From a virus, in the IMG/VR virus record IMGVR_UViG_3300030339_000196, positions 1 through 27,932 of that record: DNA of 27,932 nt; one strand, 5' to 3'. A program made the position numbers and the translations under genes. The notes under the pieces are model-generated. The model was not told the DNA's origin and did no database searches. It was given only the letters and a program-made list of their open reading frames with translations. Positions within the stretch are counted from its first letter, which is position 1. Each line of letters starts with the position of its first letter. Positions 2,783-27,833 of this stretch are shown one piece after another.

Positions 2783-3670
2783 ATGAAATACTTAAAATTT
2801 TTATTACTCGCAATTTTTACATTAATAATGTCTTCTTGTCTTACACTTACTAATACATCATCTTATTTAAATGATGATGTTTATTATAGACCTATGGATA
2901 ATTTAATCACACTAAATATAAAGAAAAAAAATCTTGATACAACTAAACTTGACACAACTTATATTAAAAAAATATTTTATACAGATATAGAATTTCAAGA
3001 TTGGAACCCGTATTGGTATCTTTTTTATAATCCATTTGAATTTAATAATTTAAGATTTAGTTATAATAATTATCCATATAATTACTATCCTTATGATTTT
3101 TATGACTATAATTATTATAATTATCAATGGTATAATTATAATTATCAATGGTATAATTATAATTACTATGGATACAATTATAATGGCAATTATCGCAATC
3201 ATAGAAAATATCATCATTTTAAAACACAATCTGAAATAGGAAATCATAGAAATTTTGCTAATAAAAATTACACCAGAAATTCTACAGTAAATCAATCAAG
3301 TACTTTAAAACACACTGGATTAAATTATAATATTCGAAAAAATTCAACTTTTAATAATTCGCAAAATATTTCTAATTATTATAGATCAAGAACTACAAAT
3401 TCAATTAATAATACAAACAATTATTCAAGACCTCAAAATTCACAGCAATCACATCAATACCAAAGGTATAATAATAATTCTAGAAGTAATTCACCAAATT
3501 CAAATTATTCACCAAGAAACAATTCAAGTTATTCTGCACCAAGAAATGATGCGCCAGCAAGAAACAATTCATCTAATTCAAGTTATTCTGCGCCAAGAAA
3601 TGATCCAGCAAGAAATAATGGAAATAGTGGTGGAAATGGTGGAAATGGTGGAAATAGTGGTCGTAGATAA
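2783..3670 (+). CDS. Low-complexity Tyr/Asn/Ser-rich lipoprotein
   Basis: A 295-residue secreted protein. Residues 1-19 form a lipoprotein signal peptide: basic MKYLK, a hydrophobic core, and the lipobox MSSC with C19 as the lipidated residue. Residues 20-75 are ordinary sequence. Residues 90-135 are dominated by YN and YNYNYQW repeats, and from about 145 onward the chain is Asn/Ser/Arg/Pro-rich with SAPRNDPARNN repeats and a Gly/Asn tail. The DNA carries matching short direct repeats near 3118-3180. It resembles the poorly defined Tyr/Asn-rich lipoproteins of Bacteroidota. A phage lipoprotein would sit in the host envelope, perhaps changing the cell surface or blocking superinfection; that role is inference. 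Confidence 0.75.
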   Translation: MKYLKFLLLAIFTLIMSSCLTLTNTSSYLNDDVYYRPMDNLITLNIKKKNLDTTKLDTTYIKKIFYTDIEFQDWNPYWYLFYNPFEFNNLRFSYNNYPYNYYPYDFYDYNYYNYQWYNYNYQWYNYNYYGYNYNGNYRNHRKYHHFKTQSEIGNHRNFANKNYTRNSTVNQSSTLKHTGLNYNIRKNSTFNNSQNISNYYRSRTTNSINNTNNYSRPQNSQQSHQYQRYNNNSRSNSPNSNYSPRNNSSYSAPRNDAPARNNSSNSSYSAPRNDPARNNGNSGGNGGNGGNSGRR

Positions 3671-5482: not shown

Positions 5483-5507
5483 AAAAGAGCCTTGATGGCT
5501 CTTTTTT
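5481..5507. terminator. Bidirectional terminator between restriction enzyme and methylase
   Basis: AAAAAAGAGCC and GGCTCTTTTTT form an 11-bp stem with loop TTGAT. Each strand ends in a T-run. The hairpin overlaps the stop codons of both convergent genes, so it serves both. Confidence 0.9.
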
Positions 5508-6636
5508 ATTCAAATATCTCTTTATATGGCAAATTCAAAACCTCCTCTGCTGATAAATTTGAAGAATTAAAATATAATCCAATATATTTTTCAAAATCGT
5601 CATTTTTTAATTTTAAATATAAATTATCTAATTTTGATTTATCTTTATTTGTTATAACTAATACATGATTCTCAAAAACGTATTCATTATTATTCTTAAG
5701 GTAATAAAATTTCAATTTCTTTGATATAGTTCTTGGCATCAATATACAATTTGTGTGTTTGATATTCTCCCATACAATATACTTTTTCTTCTCCTGATTT
5801 TTTATATCTGTTATTTCTAATTTGTCTTTACCAATATGAGTAGAATATACTAATGTTTTTGTTTCAATATCATTTTCATTTGTTAGTTTTTCTTTATGCT
5901 GATTCCAAACCACCTCACCTATACTAACCTTAAACCCTTCATCCTTTAATGAAATTATTTGCTTTGGAAATCCAACAACATTTTCAGAAAAATATATGTT
6001 TTTACCATATTTTAAAATAAAGTCTTCAGTTACATTCTTCGTCTTTTGAATTATAATTAATGACACTTTTATAGCAACATTTTTAAAATTTACATCATTT
6101 TTAATGTGTAATATATTACAATTTTCGTGTATTAAACTTCTAATCTTATTATAATATGGACTTGTTAGTATTGAACTTGGAACCAAAAACGCTAATATTC
6201 CATCTTCTTCTAATAATTCTAAACATTTATAAATAAAAATATGTGTCAAATTCATTCTGCCATCACAAGATGCCTTATATAATTTGCTAAGTTCTTTCTG
6301 TTGTTCTTTATCATAAAAAGAATATGTCAATTCAATATATGGTGGATTACCAACTATGAAATTGTATTTTTTTGTTATTTCATTATAAATAAAATCTTTA
6401 TTAAATAAATTGACATTGATAAGATTAAACTTATCTTTAAATATTTCAGTGTCAATTTCATATGCGTCTATATTTAGATTGTAATCTTTAAAAACATCAA
6501 TAAAAGCACCATCACCAAAAGATGGTTCAAGACATTCTCCACTTAAATCAGCATGTTTTTTTATAATATTTACTATATCATTGACTTGATTGTTTTCTGT
6601 AAAATATTGACCATATTGTTGTTGTTTTTTCTTCAT
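5506..6636 (-). CDS. N6-adenine DNA methyltransferase (gamma class, TaqI/Eco57I-like)
   Basis: A 376-residue enzyme with the classic motif order: GQYFT at 9-13 (motif X), LEPSFGDGAF at 36-45 (motif I, S-adenosylmethionine binding), YEID near 59-62 (motif II), and NPPY at 97-100 (motif IV, catalytic). The remainder carries target recognition. It transfers a methyl group to adenine N6 in a specific DNA site. Its convergent partner is a PD-(D/E)XK nuclease, so it probably protects phage DNA from that enzyme, and it may also protect against host restriction. Confidence 0.9.
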   Translation of the reverse strand: MKKKQQQYGQYFTENNQVNDIVNIIKKHADLSGECLEPSFGDGAFIDVFKDYNLNIDAYEIDTEIFKDKFNLINVNLFNKDFIYNEITKKYNFIVGNPPYIELTYSFYDKEQQKELSKLYKASCDGRMNLTHIFIYKCLELLEEDGILAFLVPSSILTSPYYNKIRSLIHENCNILHIKNDVNFKNVAIKVSLIIIQKTKNVTEDFILKYGKNIYFSENVVGFPKQIISLKDEGFKVSIGEVVWNQHKEKLTNENDIETKTLVYSTHIGKDKLEITDIKNQEKKKYIVWENIKHTNCILMPRTISKKLKFYYLKNNNEYVFENHVLVITNKDKSKLDNLYLKLKNDDFEKYIGLYFNSSNLSAEEVLNLPYKEIFE

Positions 6637-9234: not shown

Positions 9235-10125
9235 ATGGAAAATAATTTTTATATTTATGCAATTTTAGATCCTAGAAAGAAAGAAAAATCAATATATTAT
9301 ATTGATAATTATGAAATAATATTTGAGTATAAACCATTTTATATAGGAAAGGGTAAGAAATGGAGATTAACTCAGCATTTTTATAATTGTAGTTTAAAAA
9401 AGAATACTTACAAAAATAATAAAATATTAAAAATAATTAGAGAAGGGTATAAACCTATTTCTATTAAAATAATTGAAAAATTAACTGAAATTGATGCTTA
9501 CAATCTTGAAATAAAAGTAATATCAAATATAGGCTTAGATAATTTAACGAATAAAACTATAGGTGGTATTGGACAATGTAGTATTTCAATAATAGGTGAT
9601 AAAAATCCAATGTTTGGTAAGCATCCGACAGCATGGAACAAAGGCACAAAAGGACTTTGTCCATCTAAATTTAAAGGTAAAAAAATAGAGGAAGTTTGTG
9701 GAGAAGAAAAAGCTAAAATAGCAAAGGAAAAACAAAGTAATAGTAGAAAAGGAAAAAGTTGGGAAGAATATTTTGGTGAAGAAACTGCTAAAAGAGTAAG
9801 AGAAGAAAGAAGTATTCAAAGAACAGGTTCAAAACATAGTGAAGAAACAAAGAGAAAAATGAGAGAAAAAATTACACCAGAAAGTATATTAAACTTAAAA
9901 ACTCTAACATTAGAAAAAAGAAAGAAAAAATTTGATACTGATTTTAACTCTGAAAAAGAAAATATAGTAAAAATGATAAACGACGGTTATGCGGATAATG
10001 AAATAATAAAAAGAATTATTAACATATCAAGGTTTAGACTGAAAAAAATGATTTTTTTAATAAAAAATAAACTTAATAGTGATTATTATTTTAAAATAGA
10101 AGAAAATGGAAAAGAAAACATTTGA
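9235..10125 (+). CDS. GIY-YIG homing endonuclease with NUMOD3-like repeats
   Basis: A 296-residue protein. The catalytic GIY-YIG domain is residues 1-100: FYIYAIL at 5-11 for GIY and PFYIGKGKKWRLTQH at about 35-49 for YIG, with the following conserved region. Residues 115-135 (GDKNPMFGKHPTAWNKG) and 190-205 (GSKHSEETKRKMRE) are NUMOD3-type DNA-binding motifs, and a helix-turn-helix-like tail follows. It cuts an intronless target and is copied by repair. The 3' end overlaps the next gene by 20 bases in another frame, which suggests insertion next to that gene. A strong hairpin precedes the start. Confidence 0.9.
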   Translation: MENNFYIYAILDPRKKEKSIYYIDNYEIIFEYKPFYIGKGKKWRLTQHFYNCSLKKNTYKNNKILKIIREGYKPISIKIIEKLTEIDAYNLEIKVISNIGLDNLTNKTIGGIGQCSISIIGDKNPMFGKHPTAWNKGTKGLCPSKFKGKKIEEVCGEEKAKIAKEKQSNSRKGKSWEEYFGEETAKRVREERSIQRTGSKHSEETKRKMREKITPESILNLKTLTLEKRKKKFDTDFNSEKENIVKMINDGYADNEIIKRIINISRFRLKKMIFLIKNKLNSDYYFKIEENGKENI

Positions 10126-10520: not shown

Positions 10521-10805
10521 ATGAATATAACCACAGAACAAATTGAAAATGACTTACTAGATTTTTTTAATCCATTTGTTTATATTGCAGTACAAGAAGG
10601 TGAAACAGAAGGTGGATTTGATATTAAAGTTATAAACGAAACACAACTTCAGTTTATAATATTTGATAAAAATTGGGAAGATGATGATAAACAAAAAATA
10701 TGGGAAGAAACTTATGATGTGTCAGAATTATATAGTTTAGGTGCAATTAAATCAAAACTTGCACCAAAAATTGAAAAATCTATCCGTATATTCTGCGGGT
10801 TATAG
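10521..10805 (+). CDS. Hypothetical protein ending in TAG
   Basis: 94 residues with an acidic N-terminus, a beta-rich middle (GGFDIKVINETQLQFIIFD) and a helical tail. It resembles small phage proteins of unknown role. It is one of only two genes here that stop at TAG. The frame stays open after the TAG and leads into the ATG of the next gene at 10830, so suppression by the phage's own CTA tRNAs would fuse the two proteins. Confidence 0.65.
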   Translation: MNITTEQIENDLLDFFNPFVYIAVQEGETEGGFDIKVINETQLQFIIFDKNWEDDDKQKIWEETYDVSELYSLGAIKSKLAPKIEKSIRIFCGL

Positions 10806-10829
10806 AATAACTATGAAAAAAATAAAACT

Positions 10830-11042
10830 ATGAAAAAAGAACATATTATTTTTACAGAAATACTTCCATCTGAAGTAATAAAAGAAGATAATGGTCAAGC
10901 ATTAATTGTTGATGCTGCTCAAAATGACGAAGAAAACGGAATGTTTATTCGTATTCAATCTTGGGATGAAAATAAAGAGCATACTGAATTTAATTCTTTT
11001 GTCGGAAGAAAAGTAAAAATTACCATTGAAACAATTAATTAA
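10830..11042 (+). CDS. Hypothetical small protein
   Basis: 70 residues, alternating beta strands (FTEILPSEVI, QALIVDAAQ, MFIRIQSWDE, RKVKITIETI), so probably a small beta-barrel or sheet protein. The sequence ACTATGAAAAAA just before and at its start is a near repeat of ACTATGAAAAAA at 10811, possibly an ancestral slippage. The gene ends one base before the truncated KptA gene, so they are co-transcribed. Function unknown. Confidence 0.65.
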   Translation: MKKEHIIFTEILPSEVIKEDNGQALIVDAAQNDEENGMFIRIQSWDENKEHTEFNSFVGRKVKITIETIN

Positions 11043-11223: not shown

Positions 11224-12186
11224 TTAAATAGGTAAAAATTCGTCAATCCAACCATATTTTAATCCTACTACATAGGCTCTTGAAAAATTATTTTTTAATT
11301 CTTTTCTTGTTTTACATTCTTTAACTGCAAAAATAAAATTATTTTTATTCAACCAATATCCTTTATTTTTTTGTTTTTTAATGTCAGGAAAAAATTCATC
11401 CAACCAATTATTTTCACGACTAATAGTATAAGGTAAGCCAAATTTGTTAGAAAATTCTATACGATTTTTACATTTTTTAGCAACTTCAAAGCAATTATCT
11501 TTATTCAACCAATGTCCTTTAGGCTTAATTTTTCTTTCAATATGTGAAGTTATTTCATATAACCATTTATTTTTTATACTTGTTTTATACGCAGTACGAT
11601 GATCATTTCTACATTCATAAATAGTTTTACAATTTTTTAATTCTTCTTCACATTTTTCTTTTGTCCATATCCTTTTAATATTACCTCCTTCTCCACCATC
11701 ACCTAAATTTAACAAAAAATATAAATTATCATCTTTATACAAATTTATATTTTCAATTTCTATATTTCTTGCAGTTTCAATTGGCAATAATTCGTGATAG
11801 ATCCAAGATTTTTCATATATTAATTTATATTTTTTAATAAGATTATATAAATTGCCTGTCTTACAATTTAAATGTTCAGATAATCTTCTTTCAAAATTAC
11901 AAGTTAAACCAATATAAATATATTTTTTATCATCTAATAAAGATTTAAATATAATTTTATATCCAAATTTTTTATACATATCTCCCTTTTCTAGTAAAAA
12001 TTCATATGCCACATTCAACTTATTTATACTTTTCAAGTAAGTCCAAGCAGAATGATAATTTCTATTAAACTCTTGTCTAGAATTACATTTTTTTATAGCA
12101 TCTAAACATCTTTCTTCATTTCTCCAATAATATTTTTCACATCTATTGCTCATATCTTTATATATAAAATAATGAAAGTTCATCAA
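11224..12186 (-). CDS. GIY-YIG homing endonuclease with Trp/Cys repeats
   Basis: A 320-residue protein. The GIY-YIG domain lies near residues 70-160, with KKYIYIGLTCNFERRLSEHL as its centre and LNLGDGGEGG at its end. It is flanked by four copies of a roughly 45-residue repeat (one before, three after) of the form W-x-K-E/D-x-C-x-E-A-x-K-x-C-K-x-R-x-E-F...W-L-D-E; for example WTKEKCEEELKNCKTIYECR and WLNKDNCFEVAKKCKNRIEF. These are probable DNA-recognition modules. The gene is inserted antisense between a truncated kptA and the complete kptA. The frameshifted piece at 6663 has the same repeat. Confidence 0.85.
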   Translation of the reverse strand: MMNFHYFIYKDMSNRCEKYYWRNEERCLDAIKKCNSRQEFNRNYHSAWTYLKSINKLNVAYEFLLEKGDMYKKFGYKIIFKSLLDDKKYIYIGLTCNFERRLSEHLNCKTGNLYNLIKKYKLIYEKSWIYHELLPIETARNIEIENINLYKDDNLYFLLNLGDGGEGGNIKRIWTKEKCEEELKNCKTIYECRNDHRTAYKTSIKNKWLYEITSHIERKIKPKGHWLNKDNCFEVAKKCKNRIEFSNKFGLPYTISRENNWLDEFFPDIKKQKNKGYWLNKNNFIFAVKECKTRKELKNNFSRAYVVGLKYGWIDEFLPI

Positions 12187-12223: not shown

Positions 12224-12231
12224 TATATTTG
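12224..12231 (+). promoter_or_regulatory. TATATTTG promoter box before kptA
   Basis: TATATTTG 12 nt before the ATG at 12244 fits the Bacteroidota -7 box, giving a very short leader. It shows that the complete kptA has its own promoter after the antisense endonuclease. Confidence 0.6.
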
Positions 12232-12243
12232 CAAATAAATAAA

Positions 12244-12885
12244 ATGAATATGAACAATATATTACAGAAGAAAAGTAGAGAAATGAGTTACCTGTTAAGG
12301 CATGAGCCTGAAGACTTAAAAATAGACAAAAATGGCTATGTTTTAGTAACTGATCTATTAAAAAAATTAAACATATCATTACAAGATTTGGATGAAATTG
12401 TGTCGGATAATGATAAAAAAAGATTTGCTTTTAACACTTCAAAAGATATGATCAGGGCATCTCAAGGTCATTCCATTAAAGTTGATCTTCAGCTTAAAGC
12501 AACAAGACCACCAAGAGTTCTTTATCATGGAACAACTGATGAAAATTATCAAAAAATAAAGAAAACTGGTATAGATAAAGTTAAAAGACTTCAAGTTCAT
12601 TTATCAGATGATTATAAAACTGCATATTCTGTTGGTAAAAGGTATTCAAAGAATAAAGAACCACTCATTTTAGAAATTGATTCAGCAAAAATGAACACAG
12701 ATGGTTTCAAATTTTTAAAAAGTGCAAATGATGTTTGGATGACAGATAATGTGCCTGCAAAATATATAAGAGTACCTGAAATTTCTGATATTACTGGATA
12801 TCCTAAATGCAAAGATTGTGATAATGACAAATTAAACGGATGGAGTTCACATTGTAAAAGTTGTGGAATGCCTATTGTATATTAA
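12244..12885 (+). CDS. kptA: RNA 2'-phosphotransferase (KptA/Tpt1) with C-terminal zinc knuckle
   Basis: A 213-residue enzyme from ATG 12244; a TTG at 12229 lies within the promoter and is unlikely. Tpt1-family enzymes transfer an internal RNA 2'-phosphate to NAD+, yielding ADP-ribose 1'',2''-cyclic phosphate. The conserved Arg-His-Arg-Arg tetrad is visible: R19-H20 in SYLLRHEPED, R71 in IRASQGHS and R115 in KVKRLQVHLS, with the NAD-site VLYHGT at 92-97. After the usual end, residues 189-207 add two CxxC pairs (C189/C192 and C204/C207), a zinc-ribbon-like tail that most family members lack. Such enzymes repair RNA joined by 2'-phosphate-leaving ligases, fitting the RNA ligase and HAD genes in this window. 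Confidence 0.93.
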   Translation: MNMNNILQKKSREMSYLLRHEPEDLKIDKNGYVLVTDLLKKLNISLQDLDEIVSDNDKKRFAFNTSKDMIRASQGHSIKVDLQLKATRPPRVLYHGTTDENYQKIKKTGIDKVKRLQVHLSDDYKTAYSVGKRYSKNKEPLILEIDSAKMNTDGFKFLKSANDVWMTDNVPAKYIRVPEISDITGYPKCKDCDNDKLNGWSSHCKSCGMPIVY

Positions 12886-13162: not shown

Positions 13163-13360
13163 ATGAAAAATTTAAAACTCAAAGTTATTATTGGTGGAAT
13201 ATTAGGTATAACTATTATTTCTATAATTGCAGCATTATTATTGGATTGTACAAAGTATGGCACATATATCGCAATCTTTGATATTGGTTCAATATTTATG
13301 TGGATTTTAGTTGGTAATTTTATTGTAAATGAATATTTAAATAAAAAAAATGAAAGATAA
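13163..13360 (+). CDS. Small two-helix membrane protein, copy 2
   Basis: 65 residues, two membrane helices (about 7-25 and 39-57) with loop DCTKYGTYIA, closely similar to the protein at 12897. The pair looks like a tandem duplication. The ATG overlaps the TGA reached by reading through the TAG of copy 1. The stop is TAA, and the same frame carries an open tail to 13483. Confidence 0.7.
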   Translation: MKNLKLKVIIGGILGITIISIIAALLLDCTKYGTYIAIFDIGSIFMWILVGNFIVNEYLNKKNER

Positions 13361-13483
13361 TTATTAAAAAATATACCAGATTCTGAATGGAAACAGGGTC
13401 ATATATTTAGTTCATTTGGTGGATTAGTAAGTGGAGTTTGTGGAATTTCATTTACTAATAAAGAATATTTTAAACTTATTTAA
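13361..13483 (+). pseudogene. Orphan 3' gene fragment
   Basis: After the TAA of copy 2 the same frame remains open for 40 codons (NIPDSEWKQGHIFSSFGGLV, then SGVCGISFTNKEYFKLI) and has protein-like composition but no start codon. It may be the remains of a third gene whose 5' part was replaced by the membrane-protein duplication. I do not recognise it. Confidence 0.35.
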
Positions 13484-13486
13484 GAA

Positions 13487-13516
13487 TTGTTTATTCAAAA
13501 TATTTCCTTATCTTTG
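13487..13516 (+). promoter_or_regulatory. Promoter of the RNase P RNA (TTG-N19-TATCTTTG)
   Basis: TTG at 13487-13489 and TATCTTTG at 13509-13516 are correctly spaced for the Bacteroidota housekeeping sigma factor. The expected transcription start (about 13520) coincides with the first base of helix P1 of the RNA. Confidence 0.75.
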
Positions 13517-13520
13517 TGAA

Positions 13521-13762
13521 AAGAAATAATAATTAAAAGAGGATATATCGCACTACTCATTGAAAAATGAATGTGAGGAAACTCAGCCAACCATTGCTTA
13601 AGGAAGGAGACTAATAATCGTTTGTACTGCCGAGGGTTAAACTTAAAACAGTCTTATCGAAAGATATAGCGGGTGAGCAACGCAACAAGACTAGGTAAAG
13701 GACAATAGACAAATGATATGTTAAAACAGAAGGCCGGTTACGCTCATTAATTATTATTTTTT
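13521..13762 (+). ncRNA. rnpB: RNase P RNA (compact, bacterial A-type-like)
   Basis: The RNA component of RNase P, which removes 5' leaders from pre-tRNAs. The two ends pair over 16 bp (P1: 13521-13536 with 13747-13762). ATATATC 13543-13549 pairs with GATATGT 13715-13721 (P2). A hairpin with stem TCATT/AATGA and GAAA loop fits P3. GAGGAAACTCAGCC at 13575-13588 matches conserved region I (GAGGAAAGTCCGGGC). It pairs with GGCCGG 13732-13737 as P4, with the universal bulged U at 13583 and one A-C mismatch. TTGC/GCAA (13594-13597, 13682-13685) fits P5 and is followed by the conserved CAAGAC. AGGTAAAG near 13693 resembles loop L15 with the CCA-binding GGT. AGACAAATGA and ACAGAA (13708, 13726) match conserved region V. 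At about 242 nt it is much shorter than usual; P16-P18 and much of the specificity domain are missing. Confidence 0.85.
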
Positions 13763-13816
13763 ATAAATTTATCAAATTCATCATTAACAAATTTTGGATT
13801 AAATTTTCCCATATTA

Positions 13817-13948
13817 ATGGAACATTTCAATGATGTAAAATTTCATTTGAGTGAAATAAAAACAATATTAATAATTTCAAAGCCATTAATTGATAATGAA
13901 CTTAGGAAAAAATTAATTGAAACATATAATAAAAAGAAAAATGTGTAA
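13817..13948 (+). CDS. Hypothetical small protein
   Basis: A 43-residue frame from ATG 13817 (MEHFNDVKFHLSEIKTILII) to TAA, ending KKKNV. It is amphipathic and helical. It overlaps the next gene by 8 bases, the tight packing typical of a phage operon, which is the main reason to accept it. Function unknown. Confidence 0.45.
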   Translation: MEHFNDVKFHLSEIKTILIISKPLIDNELRKKLIETYNKKKNV

Positions 13949-17714: not shown

Positions 17715-17787
17715 CCCTTGTTAGCTCAGTTGGTAGAGCAGAAGACTCTAAATCTTTGTGTCACTGGTTCGAATCCAGTACAAGCGG
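17715..17787 (+). tRNA. Amber suppressor tRNA, anticodon CTA (copy A)
   Basis: The D-arm is GCTC/GAGC with loop AGTTGGTA. The anticodon stem is GAAGA/TCTTT with loop CTCTAAA, which gives anticodon CTA reading UAG. The T-stem is ACTGG/CCAGT with loop TTCGAAT. The acceptor CCCTTGT pairs with ACAAG-GG if C17785 is looped out, otherwise one C-C mismatch remains. The loop is the same as that of the classical supF amber suppressor. The amino acid cannot be assigned from sequence alone. Confidence 0.8.
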
Positions 17788-17795
17788 GCAAAAAT

Positions 17796-17867
17796 GATCT
17801 TGTAGCTTAACGGCAGAGCAATTGACTCTAAATCAATTTGTTGTGGGTTCGACTCCCATCAGGATCT
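17796..17867 (+). tRNA. Amber suppressor tRNA, anticodon CTA (copy B)
   Basis: A regular 72-nt cloverleaf. The acceptor is GATCTTG/CAGGATC, the D-arm GCTT/GAGC, and the anticodon stem ATTGA/TCAAT with loop CTCTAAA (anticodon CTA). The T-stem is GTGGG/CCCAT with loop TTCGACT, and the discriminator is T. No CCA is encoded. The body differs strongly from copy A, so the two suppressors probably derive from different tRNAs and may insert different amino acids. Confidence 0.9.
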
Positions 17868-17872
17868 CAATT

Positions 17873-17951
17873 CGGGGGGTAGCTCAGTTGGTTTAGAGCG
17901 TCTGTTTTTACGAGCAGAAGGTCACATTTGGTTCAAATCCTGTCCCCCTGC
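17873..17951 (+). tRNA. Irregular tRNA with 8-nt anticodon loop (Val TAC-like)
   Basis: The acceptor CGGGGGG pairs with CCCCCTG, and the D-arm GCTC/GAGC is regular. The anticodon stem TCTGT/GCAGA encloses eight bases, TTTTACGA. Counting from the 3' side gives anticodon TAC (Val) with one extra T; a four-base reading would be TTAC. The T-stem pairs only if TTT is looped out (ACA-TTT-GG with CCTGT). No CCA is encoded. Either an unusual tRNA or one with base-insertion errors. Confidence 0.6.
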
Positions 17952-17953
17952 CT

Positions 17954-20826: not shown

Positions 20827-23013
20827 TTACCTACTTGGATATCTATTATTATTATTATTCATTGACGGTCTATTTCTATATACTCTACTATAAGCACCGG
20901 CAACTCCTTCAGTATTATTTGATTTACTAGTTATACTTTCTACAAATCTTAAAACATCACCAGACAAATTACAATTAACAAGCATATCCACAAGGTTCTT
21001 ATAACCAATATTATCAAATGCTGTTGATAACGTTATAGTTGACATAACAACATCATCGTGCCCACTTTCTGCGCGATAAGTTACATTTCCAGAAGTAGTT
21101 TCGTGCTTACTAAATGTTGTAATTTCATTTATATTAACTTCACTATGCAATATCATTCTTCTATTTCTAATTGATTGTTGAAATTCTTTATCTATAATTA
21201 AATGTTTATCTTTTGTCAACCTTAAACCTATTTTAGTTACAATATCTTCCCTATTTTGTTTATATCTTAAAAATATTGAATTAGAATATTGATTATCACC
21301 ATCAAAAACATTAGGTAAATGTGTTAAAAACTCTGAACCATAAGTATTATTCTCTAAAACAACTTTTACTTTTTCTGAATCAAACAATTCAAATGCGATT
21401 AAATAAAAAATATGAGCAACCTCACGAATAGAATAAAGATTATTTCTATACAAACCAATTTGCTCAATTTTGAACAACTCATAAAGACTTTCATACTTGT
21501 GCTTTTCAATCTCAGATTTATCACGCAGGGTGAGCTTAAATATGTTTAAAACCGAATAATCCTTGGCAAGTCCTTCTGATAAATCCACAGAAATCAAAAT
21601 ATAATAATCTTTAACTTTTTGTATATTGAAAAGATTTGGGTCTCTAACAAATTTCAACGATTCATAAGGAATATTTAATCTATTAAATTGCGGAAATTCA
21701 ATATAATCAAATGGTAACTGCTTACTTTTTAATAAATCAATAGTTTCTTTATTAAAAAGAATTCTATCGCCAGTAACAAAATGTAATCCATATTCTTGAT
21801 CAAATTTTTCTGCTGAACCAATAAGTTTTGTTTCTTCTTCTTGCCAATTAGAAACAACGGCCAATTCAGGTAATGGTATTCCATTTATACGAATTTTTCT
21901 AATATTATCTATATAAGTTTTTTCATCTTCAATTTCATATTTAACACAATCTATAATATCATCACCAACAGTTTTCTTATATAATTTAATATCATAATTT
22001 TCTCTAATTTCTCTTAACACTATAGATTTAGAAAGACCATACTTTTTTAATTTAAAATCCATTATTTTAATTTTAGTATCTTCACGTCCAGGTACTTGAT
22101 TCCAATACACCCTCATTGCCTTATATGGGTTCTTATTTGGATCTTCATCAGGCAATTCAGCAGCAGTTATCAATTCCCAAAACATATTATATCCACAAGG
22201 TGTAGAAGTTATTATAATCCTAGAATTTTCAACAGAAGATACTACTGGAATAATAGCTCCATAATAATCTCTAATAAAATTATCTGGAATATGAGCAAAC
22301 TCATCAAGATACAAAAGGTCAATAGTAAATCCAATTGATGGCTCCTTTGTTCTATTTTCTGTTTGAATACGGGAATTATTTTCAAATGCAATTTGTGTTT
22401 CATTCCAGTTTGTAACGCCTTTCTTCAGAAAGAATGGCAATAATTTATAAATATCTTTAATTTTTCTAATGATTTCTTTTACAGTTTTACCTTTATTTGC
22501 AACAATCATACATCCTTTATCATCATTAAACAATACAAAATGCAATAAAACAATAGCAGCAGATACTGTATTATGTGATAATATATCATTAGTATAATAA
22601 CTCATTTCAGGAGTATCAATTGATAAATCAAACATACTCACTTTACCATACATTTTTTTAATAGACACAACTCTACTTAAGCCTTGCTTAGTTAAAACAT
22701 AATCATCTGTAGTTAAAGTTATAAGCATTTTAGGCTCATAATCTTTACAAAAAACAATGTGTGTATCTGCACCTTCTAACCATAAATTATTTTCTAGTTT
22801 TAATCTATATCTTTGAAATGGTTGTGTTATATTTATTTCTGTTACAGGAACCATTCCATAATCGGTTTCAACTAATAATTCTTGATCTAAAAAAATAGTA
22901 TTAACGAATTTCTTTAGTATATCATCCTCATTAGGATTGAAATTTCTAAATTCATATCTTTCTATCAATTGAATTATAAAATATATTACATTTTTTATTA
23001 TATTTTTTAGCAT
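20827..23013 (-). CDS. C-terminal half of split large terminase, preceded by a C-intein
   Basis: 728 residues. Residues 1-148 are the C-terminal part of a split intein. A hydrophobic helix (MLKNIIKNVIYFIIQLIERY) comes first, then GADTHIVF at 81-88 (block B, His87... region), FDLSIDTPEMSYYTNDILSHN ending at N148 (blocks F and G, penultimate His147), and nucleophile T149. Residues 149-728 are terminase: TVSAAIVLLHFVLF continues the Walker A motif, LLYLDEFAHIP is Walker B, and VDLSEGLAKDYSVLNI, VVLENNTYG and GHDDVVMS are nuclease motifs. Trans-splicing with the product at 24649 would give a 695-residue T4 gp17-like motor that pumps DNA into the prohead. Alone it lacks the P-loop lysine and cannot bind ATP normally. 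Confidence 0.92.
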   Translation of the reverse strand: MLKNIIKNVIYFIIQLIERYEFRNFNPNEDDILKKFVNTIFLDQELLVETDYGMVPVTEINITQPFQRYRLKLENNLWLEGADTHIVFCKDYEPKMLITLTTDDYVLTKQGLSRVVSIKKMYGKVSMFDLSIDTPEMSYYTNDILSHNTVSAAIVLLHFVLFNDDKGCMIVANKGKTVKEIIRKIKDIYKLLPFFLKKGVTNWNETQIAFENNSRIQTENRTKEPSIGFTIDLLYLDEFAHIPDNFIRDYYGAIIPVVSSVENSRIIITSTPCGYNMFWELITAAELPDEDPNKNPYKAMRVYWNQVPGREDTKIKIMDFKLKKYGLSKSIVLREIRENYDIKLYKKTVGDDIIDCVKYEIEDEKTYIDNIRKIRINGIPLPELAVVSNWQEEETKLIGSAEKFDQEYGLHFVTGDRILFNKETIDLLKSKQLPFDYIEFPQFNRLNIPYESLKFVRDPNLFNIQKVKDYYILISVDLSEGLAKDYSVLNIFKLTLRDKSEIEKHKYESLYELFKIEQIGLYRNNLYSIREVAHIFYLIAFELFDSEKVKVVLENNTYGSEFLTHLPNVFDGDNQYSNSIFLRYKQNREDIVTKIGLRLTKDKHLIIDKEFQQSIRNRRMILHSEVNINEITTFSKHETTSGNVTYRAESGHDDVVMSTITLSTAFDNIGYKNLVDMLVNCNLSGDVLRFVESITSKSNNTEGVAGAYSRVYRNRPSMNNNNNRYPSR

Positions 23014-25874: not shown

Positions 25875-27833
25875 TTATTTACTTGAAGTTACACCTTTCC
25901 AAATAATATTAATTGTGCTAAATCCAGTTGTTGTTTTTGGATCTTCACTAAAAAAAACACCATTTCTATTACTCCAACCACCTCTTAAAATAACTAATTC
26001 ATTTGATCCAATAACAATATCACCTAAAACAGGGTCAATACCAATTAATACACTAGCATCATATTGAGATGTACTATTATATGACACAACTGTACTATTA
26101 CCAACAGATAATGAAGAAGATGTGCTTAATGCGGCATTAATTGTTGATGTATTAGGAACAGATGAACTATTATTTGAACTATTTGCAGCATTCTGTTGAT
26201 TTTGTTGTGCGGTTACAATATTTGTGTAATTATTTGCTGAAACATTAACAGCCGATGATGATGCTACATAAGTATTTTGAACTACATTTTTTTGTGTTGA
26301 TGATAGCAAAGCTCCATCTCTATGATAATCTTCATTATCTTTGCCAACAAATTCTATATTAATTGAATCTATACCATCTACACTATTTTTGATTTGTGTA
26401 ATCAAGTCTGATTTAATAACTCTATCATATCTATCATAACTTGAAAAATAATTAGACAAAGTTGTAATAATTTGTGATCTAATATTATCTTCTGAAACAT
26501 CATCATAAATTATAACAAATATATTTACAACAAAATATTTTATCAAAGGATCTATAACTTTTATTGTACTTGTAATACTAATTATACCTTGCATTTTAAG
26601 ATAAGTTAATATTCTATTCTTCTCAGTATCATCTAAATAAAAAGCATCTAAAGGTACATTAAAATAATTAACATCAGTTGAAAAATAATCTGTAATTCTT
26701 GGTATTAAATATAAATACATTTCATTAATATTAATATTATCTAATGTGCCGTCACTATTAATATCAATTTTAATCATATCTAAATTATTAAAAGCATTAA
26801 CTTTAGAAAACATATTTAATTTTTTAAGATGATAAATAAATTGAGATGGAGTCGCAAGAACAAAATTTCTTGATACATAAGGAATAACTGATTTAGTATA
26901 TTCCAAACTTTCACCATCACTAGCAAATTTTATGTCAGTTTCAATAAATAAATCAAAAATCTGACTCGCTTGAATAATATTTCCATTATCATCATACATA
27001 TCATCAACAAAAGTAAAATCATTAACTTTATTATTTAATATATTTCCTTGCAATCCATTATTCAATAAATATGTAACTGATATTGTTGATCCAATAGGGG
27101 GAATACAGCCGTTAATTCCATTACCAAAATACACATCTAAACCACCATTAAATCCAGTTCTTGTATAACAAGCATATTCATTATCAAGCATATCGTATAA
27201 ATGATCCCTAATCTGTAAATTTATTCCATTTAAATAAATAAGAAAATCAAAATTATCAATAGTAGAACTATTACTAACTGTAACCTGAAAAGATTGAGAT
27301 ATTGTACCATCACCAGTAAAATTTTGTGTATCGTATTTGCCTTGTACTATATTGACAAAAAATTGGCAACCAGGTGTTAAAGGATATACATTTTTAGATG
27401 TGCCAGTTTTTAAGGAATAATAAAGTCCATTACTTTTATTTTTAAGTAATGTATTATCATATATTACAACCTGTTCGCCAGAAATAGTTGATTGAATATT
27501 AATACCTTGTTTAAGCTTAAATTTAATAGTACCTCTGGCCGAAATTGATCTTGATGGATTATGCCCAGATATTCTAGCAATATTTCTAATCATTCTTATA
27601 GTATTTGCTTGGTCTATATCTAGTTGTTTAACAAAATTTTTCAAATATAATATATTCTGAAGAAAGAATTCTTTAACAACTTCTAATATTTGGCCATAAG
27701 GTGATGCTGAATTAAAAAGAATACTAGATTTATCATATGCAGAACTCAACCAATTATTTATCTGATTTGTTAAATTTGTATAATTCAACTCTATTCTATT
27801 AAAAACTCTGTTAAGTTTTGTGGATCTTGCCAT
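25875..27833 (-). CDS. Baseplate wedge protein, gp6/J-like
   Basis: 652 residues. The N-terminus (FNRIELNYTNLTNQINNWLS, then EVVKEFFLQNILYLKNFVKQ, and IARISGHNPSRSISARGTIK) is the beginning typical of gp6-like baseplate proteins. The centre contains the Baseplate_J core (FDLFIETDIKFASDGESLEY, then TPSQFIYHLKKLNMFSKVNA) and the later helical insertion DDTEKNRILTYLKMQGIISI. In T4 gp6 forms the wedge ring of the baseplate and controls its opening. Residues about 525-590 form an Asn/Ser/Ala-rich low-complexity segment, and the final 60 residues form an added domain (IDPVLGDIVIGSNELVILRG). It is followed on the minus strand by the convergent small gene. Confidence 0.82.
   Translation of the reverse strand: MARSTKLNRVFNRIELNYTNLTNQINNWLSSAYDKSSILFNSASPYGQILEVVKEFFLQNILYLKNFVKQLDIDQANTIRMIRNIARISGHNPSRSISARGTIKFKLKQGINIQSTISGEQVVIYDNTLLKNKSNGLYYSLKTGTSKNVYPLTPGCQFFVNIVQGKYDTQNFTGDGTISQSFQVTVSNSSTIDNFDFLIYLNGINLQIRDHLYDMLDNEYACYTRTGFNGGLDVYFGNGINGCIPPIGSTISVTYLLNNGLQGNILNNKVNDFTFVDDMYDDNGNIIQASQIFDLFIETDIKFASDGESLEYTKSVIPYVSRNFVLATPSQFIYHLKKLNMFSKVNAFNNLDMIKIDINSDGTLDNININEMYLYLIPRITDYFSTDVNYFNVPLDAFYLDDTEKNRILTYLKMQGIISITSTIKVIDPLIKYFVVNIFVIIYDDVSEDNIRSQIITTLSNYFSSYDRYDRVIKSDLITQIKNSVDGIDSINIEFVGKDNEDYHRDGALLSSTQKNVVQNTYVASSSAVNVSANNYTNIVTAQQNQQNAANSSNNSSSVPNTSTINAALSTSSSLSVGNSTVVSYNSTSQYDASVLIGIDPVLGDIVIGSNELVILRGGWSNRNGVFFSEDPKTTTGFSTINIIWKGVTSSK

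Follow-up and report, generated by a model that had tools for sequence, protein, structure and literature searches.

A phage-encoded minimal RNase P RNA and its relatives in tRNA-rich phages

The DNA analysed here, referred to as the window, is the whole of IMG/VR record IMGVR_UViG_3300030339_000196 (27,932 nt), and the genes for a terminase large subunit (20827-23013, minus strand) and a baseplate wedge protein (25875-27833, minus strand) identify the contig as that of a phage. On its plus strand it carries two tRNA-Lys genes (48-122 and 434-507) and a group of three tRNA genes, two of them with a CTA anticodon (17715-17952), all of which are possible substrates of the RNA described below. 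The two CTA genes (17715-17868) are of the amber suppressor type and are followed by one odd tRNA at 17873; when TAG is read as glutamine, a few small frames merge (e.g., 10521-11042) and the large genes are unchanged. An RNA ligase gene (818-1498; PF09414, 73.6 bits) and a gene for a KptA/Tpt1-like RNA 2'-phosphotransferase (12229-12885, plus strand; phrog_5470, 186.5 bits) are perhaps a tRNA repair pair, and with these two genes the phage seems to own an RNA-processing set. A phosphotransferase relative with 47% identity is found in another phage contig, L046, ~6 kb from the RNase P RNA of that contig. The window further encodes two GIY-YIG-type endonucleases (9235-10125 and 11224-12186), which are probably homing endonucleases, and an Eco57I-type DNA methylase (5506-6636; PF07669, 65.9 bits). 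The RNase P RNA itself is 242 nt long and occupies 13521-13762 on the plus strand, ~640 nt downstream of the phosphotransferase gene, as delimited by the covariance model R1 together with the pairing of P1.

The identity of this stretch as a phage-encoded RNase P RNA, which a first-pass annotation had read from its letters, is established by its match to R1, by compensatory changes in P2 and P4 among its relatives and by the phage genes on the same contig. The expectation that RF00010 or RF00011 would recognize it did not hold: no RNase P family matched the window at the curated Rfam thresholds, and the Rfam RNase P families, including these two, gave no match within 13350-13900 even at E values up to 10. 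Considered by itself, this outcome would have refuted the reading under the condition that the first-pass annotation had set. Since Rfam misses the RNA, relatives were gathered for a model of their own. R1 was built from 17 phage relatives with the window left out and contains nested helices only; it matches the window over 13541-13742 with 112.1 bits (E 6.7e-23, R1 E-values being rough), and a chance resemblance is ruled out by a match of this size to a model made without the window. Thermodynamic folding of the RNA alone is not distinctive (z -1.44).

Relatives were found in cultured, metagenomic and huge phages, and the search of related phage genomes that had been proposed earlier did turn up the same RNA. 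A blastn search of phage records detected it in the huge phages LR756502 (642 kb, E 3e-13) and LR756511 (595 kb), and with the flanks included in the query the alignment was confined to the RNA and left the flanks unmatched; the LR756502 copy also matches the Rfam archaeal RNase P family (E 2.9e-6). Spaced patterns of conserved letters retrieved 71 IMG/VR viral contigs, 62 of which are matched by R1. One contig used as a blastn query (L016) led to LR756501/LR756503 (735 kb) and to the cultured, T4-like Stenotrophomonas phage DLP6, where the RNA lies at 105.78-106.03 kb in an unannotated gap before a tRNA-Arg gene, inside a tRNA array; two other contigs (L023 and L010) found no match among the phage records, and a single-protein search of the viral contigs returned a near-identical contig only. 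R1 also matches the DLP6 RNA and those of four huge phages (595-735 kb). When R1 was run over 81 sequences, 67 were matched (62 viral contigs, the window and 4 GenBank phage records), representing 59 distinct sequences, and the 14 left unmatched comprise five stretches not expected to carry the RNA and nine chance pattern hits without an R1 match (L011, L013, L024, L026, L039, L041, L043, L066, and L071). An AT-rich stretch (H7/L004) was likewise discarded as a chance match that gives nothing with R1, the RNA of that genome being located elsewhere (L080). The closest relatives of the window RNA, by identity over aligned columns, are L009 (82%) and LR756502 (76%), and two contigs, L064 (37.6 bits) and L040 (67.6 bits), fit the R1 family loosely.

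Profile similarity ties the family to RNase P RNA, and the window joins it through R1. At E <= 0.001, RF00010 matches 15 of 50 phage records, the best at 118.5 bits, with its curated cut-off passed by 1 of the 50; the DLP6 RNA scores 54.7 bits against it, and the archaeal model RF00373 gives 54.1 bits (E 1.5e-12) for the RNA of L006. R1 does not behave as a matcher of any bacterial rnpB, its best score over 28 ordinary rnpB loci being 14.2 bits (E 0.18). The homology to RF00010, combined with the blindness of R1 to ordinary rnpB, indicates that the phage RNAs are homologous to the cellular RNA and form a separate branch. The record with the best RF00010 score, L033, stands apart in being E. 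coli-like (118.5 bits with RF00010 vs 41.2 bits with R1), and its RNA is probably a separate capture, independent of the main family. This 207-nt RNase P RNA (L033 10596-10802) also sits inside a phage tRNA array.

The window RNA folds as a type A catalytic domain with an L15 GGU, and, one misplaced element apart, those named in the first-pass annotation were found, namely the 16-bp P1, P2, the GAAA-capped P3, conserved region I (CR-I), P4 with its bulged U, L15 and CR-V. The ends are joined by the 16 bp of P1 (13521-13536 with 13747-13762), which in the swap test described below beats 200 of 200 swaps over 52 sequences (z 20.1). P2 is an 8-bp helix (13542-13549 with 13715-13722; 5' strand GAUAUAUC) and P3 a UCAUU-GAAA-AAUGA hairpin at 13557-13570 (13557-13561 with 13566-13570); in the alignment fitted to R1, 98.3% and 92.5% of their cells, respectively, are paired across the family. 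CR-I, GAGGAA at 13575-13580, is present in 59 of 59 sequences, most members having been retrieved with a pattern that contained it, and is also found in L002, L003, L079, and L080, which were reached by BLAST. The 5' strand of P4 (13580-13588) pairs with 13732-13739 and bulges out U13583, a U seen in 59 of 59 sequences and likewise part of the search pattern. The unusual A-C pair noticed in P4 is real and is the sole mismatch of that helix (A13585-C13735); by its letters, the window is the 1 of 59 distinct sequences with a non-standard pair at this place. CR-V, ACAGAA at 13726-13731, is partly pattern-selected, and its ACAG and last A occur in all 59.

The analysis added P6, P7, P15, P16, and P17 to the elements already named. 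P5 proper is formed by AACC 13589-13592 with GGUU 13635-13638 (98.7% paired in the family), and the CAAGAC that the first-pass annotation placed behind P5 (13686-13691) is rejected as the post-P5 region, as it overlaps the 3' strand of P16. The segment directly after P5 is instead AAACUUAAAACAG (13639-13651), the equivalent of CR-IV/J5-15, whose AA (13640-13641) is present in 59 of 59 sequences. UUGCUUA in J5/7 (13594-13600) pairs with UGAGCAA in L17 (13674-13680) to give the 7-bp P6 pseudoknot. The reduced specificity domain (13602-13631) consists of P7 (13602-13606 with 13627-13631; one A-G mismatch, 95.2% paired in the family) enclosing a small hairpin, which is weak in the window and 98.1% paired in the family. 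P15 (CUU 13642-13644 with AAG 13698-13700; 97.6% paired in the family) is followed by P16 (13650-13654 with 13688-13692; 95.1%), an extra UAUC-GAAA-GAUA hairpin (13655-13666), P17 (13669-13671 with 13681-13683; 91.1%), and the L15 GGU (13694-13696), whose three letters are found in 55, 56, and 56 of 59 sequences in the aligned columns. This GGU is presumably the binding site for the 3' CCA of tRNA. The shortening of the specificity domain that had been noticed is borne out: in the window, 42 nt separate the two strands of P5 (40-123 nt in the family, median 52), and a P7-P14 specificity domain with T-loop binding modules was not found in the family. P18 is absent in 48 of 59 sequences, which have at most 22 nt between the 3' strands of P15 and P2 (14 nt in the window), and the other 11 have 25-57 nt there, mostly with hairpins.

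Covariation supports this fold at several levels. In the alignment of the 17 compact relatives without the window, 94.1% of 779 cells are paired vs 67.5% after shuffling, and 36 of 47 pairs change on both sides; shifting the partners by 1-3 columns drops the pairing to 32-44%, a comparison in which the unshifted structure has the advantage of having been drawn by hand on some of the same sequences. Since R1 was built without P4 and P6, the pairing of these two helices on the R1 alignment tests the fold independently. For P4, 98.5% of cells are paired and 6 of 8 pairs have changes on both sides, and for P6 the figures are 79.7% and 6 of 6; P6 is weaker than P4, and 21 of 49 cells at its last pair are unpaired. 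Taken together, 91.4% of their 758 cells are paired (66.8% after shuffling) and 196 cells are changed on both sides (52.8 after shuffling); the number of doubly changed pairs (12) is not distinctive, as 122 of 500 shuffles attained it. The pairs of P2 and P4 are upheld by compensatory changes among the relatives, as would be expected of a genuine RNase P RNA. For nine helices, pairing with the sequence's own strand, computed over 51-52 of the 59 sequences, exceeded all 200 swaps between sequences (z 6.0-20.1), a test that left out 7 whose elements could not be placed and that favours P5, P15, and P16, because complementarity was partly used to locate CR-IV and L15.

Across the family, the RNA is strongly associated with tRNA arrays. 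In 58 non-redundant phage stretches, all 206 of 206 tRNA genes within 1.5 kb of the RNA share its strand, a count that is partly expected and is uncorrected for the frequent co-orientation of neighbouring phage genes. tRNA genes occur in 42 of the 58 stretches, in 24 of which the RNA has one no more than 150 nt away, and no tRNA gene was found in the other 16; a tRNA gene within 500 nt was counted 25 times vs 16 under random placement in the same stretch. The nearest tRNA gene of the window is 4 kb from the RNase P RNA, so co-transcription with tRNAs is only conjectural for the window phage. A host-type promoter starting transcription at P1 had also been claimed, and is plausible rather than proven. 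The element, TTG-N19-TATCTTTG, spans 13487-13516 on the plus strand (TTG 13487-13489, a 19-nt spacer, and TATCTTTG at 13509-13516), and in L009 the RNA is preceded by this element too, with an unchanged spacing; more widely, 7 of 59 sequences have TAnnTTTG upstream, where 1.65 would be expected. The element fits the consensus of Bacteroidota promoters, and an own promoter of this type for the window RNA is a plausible reading of the letters. The sole recorded host in the family is a bacterium, that of DLP6, and other hosts are assigned by promoter type.

The protein partner of bacterial RNase P RNA, RnpA (PF00825), is encoded in 2 of 50 RNA-bearing records and in 1 of 17 further ones. The three proteins come from LR756502 (53.1 bits), a 476-kb contig (50.0 bits), and LR745206 (49 bits), the last of which was reached via its RnpA and also contains the RNA (129.8 bits with R1), so that the count free of this bias becomes 2 of 66, in which near-duplicates are counted. 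Their genes (L077 4187-4489, L078 4380-4676, and L110 1519-1797) belong to huge phages of 476-642 kb, and the proteins are 52-57% identical to the first of them and have the invariant stretch FAVSSKKFKRAVDRNR in common. RnpA was not found in 64 of the 67 RNA-bearing records, many of which are fragments, nor in the 27.9-kb fragment that forms the window; where a record has none, as with DLP6 and the 735-kb phage, the RnpA of the host would be needed. The RNA and an RnpA gene occur in the same genome in three phages and two bacterial assemblies.

A pattern scan of bacteria, with one genome per species, gave 20 hits, 3 of which are supported by R1. The assembly of Achromobacter anxifer carries the phage-type RNA on a 486,889-base contig (L112, L113) whose first 40 kb contain 38 + 16 tRNA genes as well as a tmRNA; the host's own rnpB sits on another contig. 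This contig is probably a huge phage or prophage within the assembly; its genes for topoisomerase and RNA ligase are of the phage type, it gives a weak match to a terminase (30.8 bits), and, with Terminase_6N not found in the Achromobacter genome, its phage label comes from the other genes. Among the RNA-bearing records at large, Terminase_6N was found in 16 of 50 and not in the other 34, for which the phage label comes from IMG/VR or from genes near the RNA.

The two remaining assemblies, G063 (L096/L114 8571-8771) and G057 (L090 405-605), come from records titled Gemmataceae and Planctomycetia, respectively, and both are placed in one family. In each, the phage-type RNA lies among ordinary chromosomal genes, and the distance between the searched core and a tRNA is 38 and 61 nt. 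Of 41 genomes of the family, 34 contain an ordinary rnpB (363-643 nt) that scores over the RF00010 cut-off, three have partial RF00010 matches only and two have none; in G063 and G057 the sole match, a statement that applies to RF00010 and to these assemblies, is the 224-nt phage-type RNA, and the cellular RnpA is kept. R1 matched 2 of 61 Gemmataceae-family genomes, with 44 candidates per genome scored and misses therefore being little informative. The G063 and G057 RNAs group with those of phage contigs L046 and L052 with a support of 0.89, tree support within the group being modest. The G057 RNA is 91% identical to that of L046, and L046 and L052 carry phage-type helicases. The simplest reading of these sequences is that a phage RNA would have replaced the cellular RNase P RNA in G063 and G057. 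Transfer in the opposite direction is possible, as are incomplete assemblies, which could explain both cases given that 5 of the other 39 family genomes lack a full RF00010 match. A broader picture, in which phages have a lineage of minimal RNase P RNA of their own, joined by RnpA to a complete phage RNase P in some huge phages, and in which one member of it replaced the housekeeping RNA of some Gemmataceae and works there as the sole RNase P RNA with the cell's RnpA, is put forward tentatively, at a little under an even chance. A further genome, G083, has a degenerate partial second rnpB (L129 ~2800-3010) ~0.9 kb after its intact gene.

The phage RNAs can be placed against several known systems. 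The element order of bacterial type A RNase P RNA is the same as theirs, and they share with it (RF00010) CR-I, CR-V, the P2/P4 pseudoknot with its bulged U, P5, the P6-L17 pseudoknot, P15 with the L15 GGU, and P16-P17; unlike it, they are without the P8-P14 set and, in 48 of 59, without P18. The archaeal model RF00373 is the best-scoring one for L002 (32.4 bits), L007 (36.7 bits), and L006 (54.1 bits), all of which are without P18, but these scores lie below its 84-bit cut-off and the partner, where found, is a bacterial RnpA. The type P minimal RNase P RNA of Pyrobaculum is reported to be missing nearly the whole specificity domain (PMC4919922). The phage RNAs resemble it in having lost most of this domain, yet differ in keeping P7 and a small hairpin and, in three phages, in occurring with a bacterial RnpA rather than in archaeal cells. 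A catalytic domain of the E. coli RNA without the specificity domain is active, its activity likely needs a P6-like contact, and P18 adds nothing to the construct when the specificity domain is absent, as published experiments have shown (PMC5839562). This P6-mimic construct parallels the phage RNAs in its catalytic domain, P6 contact, and dispensable P18, with the difference that the phage RNAs are natural rather than laboratory products and keep P7 and the small hairpin. Theta ribozymes, which are reported to lie next to phage suppressor tRNAs (PMC10879173), are likewise phage-encoded catalytic RNAs for tRNA processing, catalysis being predicted for the phage RNase P RNAs; they are HDV-like and self-cleaving, are read as acting at the 3' side of the tRNA and do not have an RNase P fold.

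The most likely role of the RNA, judged from sequence, is to pair with the RnpA of the host, or rarely of the phage, and to mature the 5' ends of phage tRNAs. In the proposed mechanism, the window RNA would be transcribed from its own host-type promoter, many other members being transcribed, presumably, within a tRNA array; it would adopt the fold of a type A catalytic domain, secured by the pseudoknots P2/P4 and P6, recruit host RnpA (or, in a few huge phages, phage RnpA), pair through its L15 GGU with the CCA end of the tRNA and cleave 5' leaders off phage tRNA precursors. The P6 contact, by keeping the catalytic domain compact, may be what allows the specificity domain and P18 to be lost, and tRNA recognition would then proceed mainly via the acceptor stem and CCA. 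The expression, catalysis, partner protein, and substrates of the phage RNA are what we infer from these features, and the explanation as a whole, a phage RNase P RNA that works with host or phage RnpA on the leaders of phage tRNAs, appears highly probable. The reading as a tRNA-maturing enzyme is strengthened by the three huge phages that encode RnpA and by the two assemblies in which the phage-type RNA is the sole RF00010 match. Possible reasons for a phage to need its own RNA include host shut-off, defence nucleases directed at host RNase P or tRNAs, and simple dosage while tRNAs are made in a burst.

The RNA might instead bind host RnpA or RNase P substrates and so block or redirect the host enzyme without cleaving. 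The presence of RnpA in only 3 of 67 RNA-bearing records, by which most of these phages would compete with the host RNA for protein, is in keeping with such a decoy, as is the reduced specificity domain, which would weaken substrate binding. A pure decoy is nevertheless argued against by the retention of the CCA-binding loop and catalytic core, both strongly constrained and neither of which it would need, and further by the location of many of the RNAs within same-strand tRNA arrays, the three phages that bring their own RnpA, and the two bacteria that may live on a phage-type RNA; we regard it as unlikely. Marginally less likely again is an active but specialised ribozyme, directed mainly at phage mRNAs, tmRNA, or the spacers of polycistronic tRNAs rather than at ordinary leaders. 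Loss of most of the specificity domain and the tmRNA near the RNA in L010 and the Achromobacter contig would suit it, whereas the association with tRNA genes and the retained CCA-binding loop favour maturation of phage tRNAs.

That the RNA is a relic, a captured host rnpB that is no longer expressed or functional, is very improbable. One mismatch each in P4 and P7 of the window and the lack of an Rfam match could be taken as signs of decay, but compensatory changes run through 59 distinct sequences, the RNA can be aligned by blastn to other phages where its flanks cannot, the promoter is kept, and the failure of R1 to match the 28 ordinary rnpB loci shows that it was not copied recently from a gene of that kind. 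A fortuitous resemblance or a misfiling of bacterial DNA, suggested by the Rfam miss, the 9 chance hits among 71 pattern hits in viral contigs, and the 34 of 50 records in which no Terminase_6N was found, can be dismissed as next to impossible in view of the E value of 6.7e-23 with a window-free model, the terminase and baseplate genes of the window, and the family member in the cultured phage DLP6.

Few ribozymes have been retained by almost every cell; RNase P RNA is one of them and is regarded as a cellular gene. A viral branch of it, if true, would mean that phages mature tRNAs with a ribozyme of their own, and the Gemmataceae cases, if true, that an essential cellular function was taken over by a viral RNA. 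Structural studies would gain from the family dozens of natural, strongly covarying minimal RNase P RNAs and a direct test of the purpose of the specificity domain, and the cultured carrier DLP6 makes knock-out tests feasible now. This large family of minimal RNase P RNAs in tRNA-rich phages is apparently undescribed so far. Among the matches listed from open-licence full texts, supplements excluded, none names a phage RNase P RNA; in the main text of the huge-phage paper (PMC7162821) the terms "RNase P" and "ribonuclease P" are absent, as is "RNase P" from that of the DLP6 paper (PMC5349666), and the stretch with the RNA is unannotated in the DLP6 GenBank record.

Other structured RNAs were observed in some of the contigs. 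A tmRNA lies near the RNase P RNA in L010, and L006, a tRNA-rich phage contig with an RNase P RNA, also contains a GOLLD RNA (2460-2944; 144.8 bits, just below the cut-off) with a tRNA inside it.
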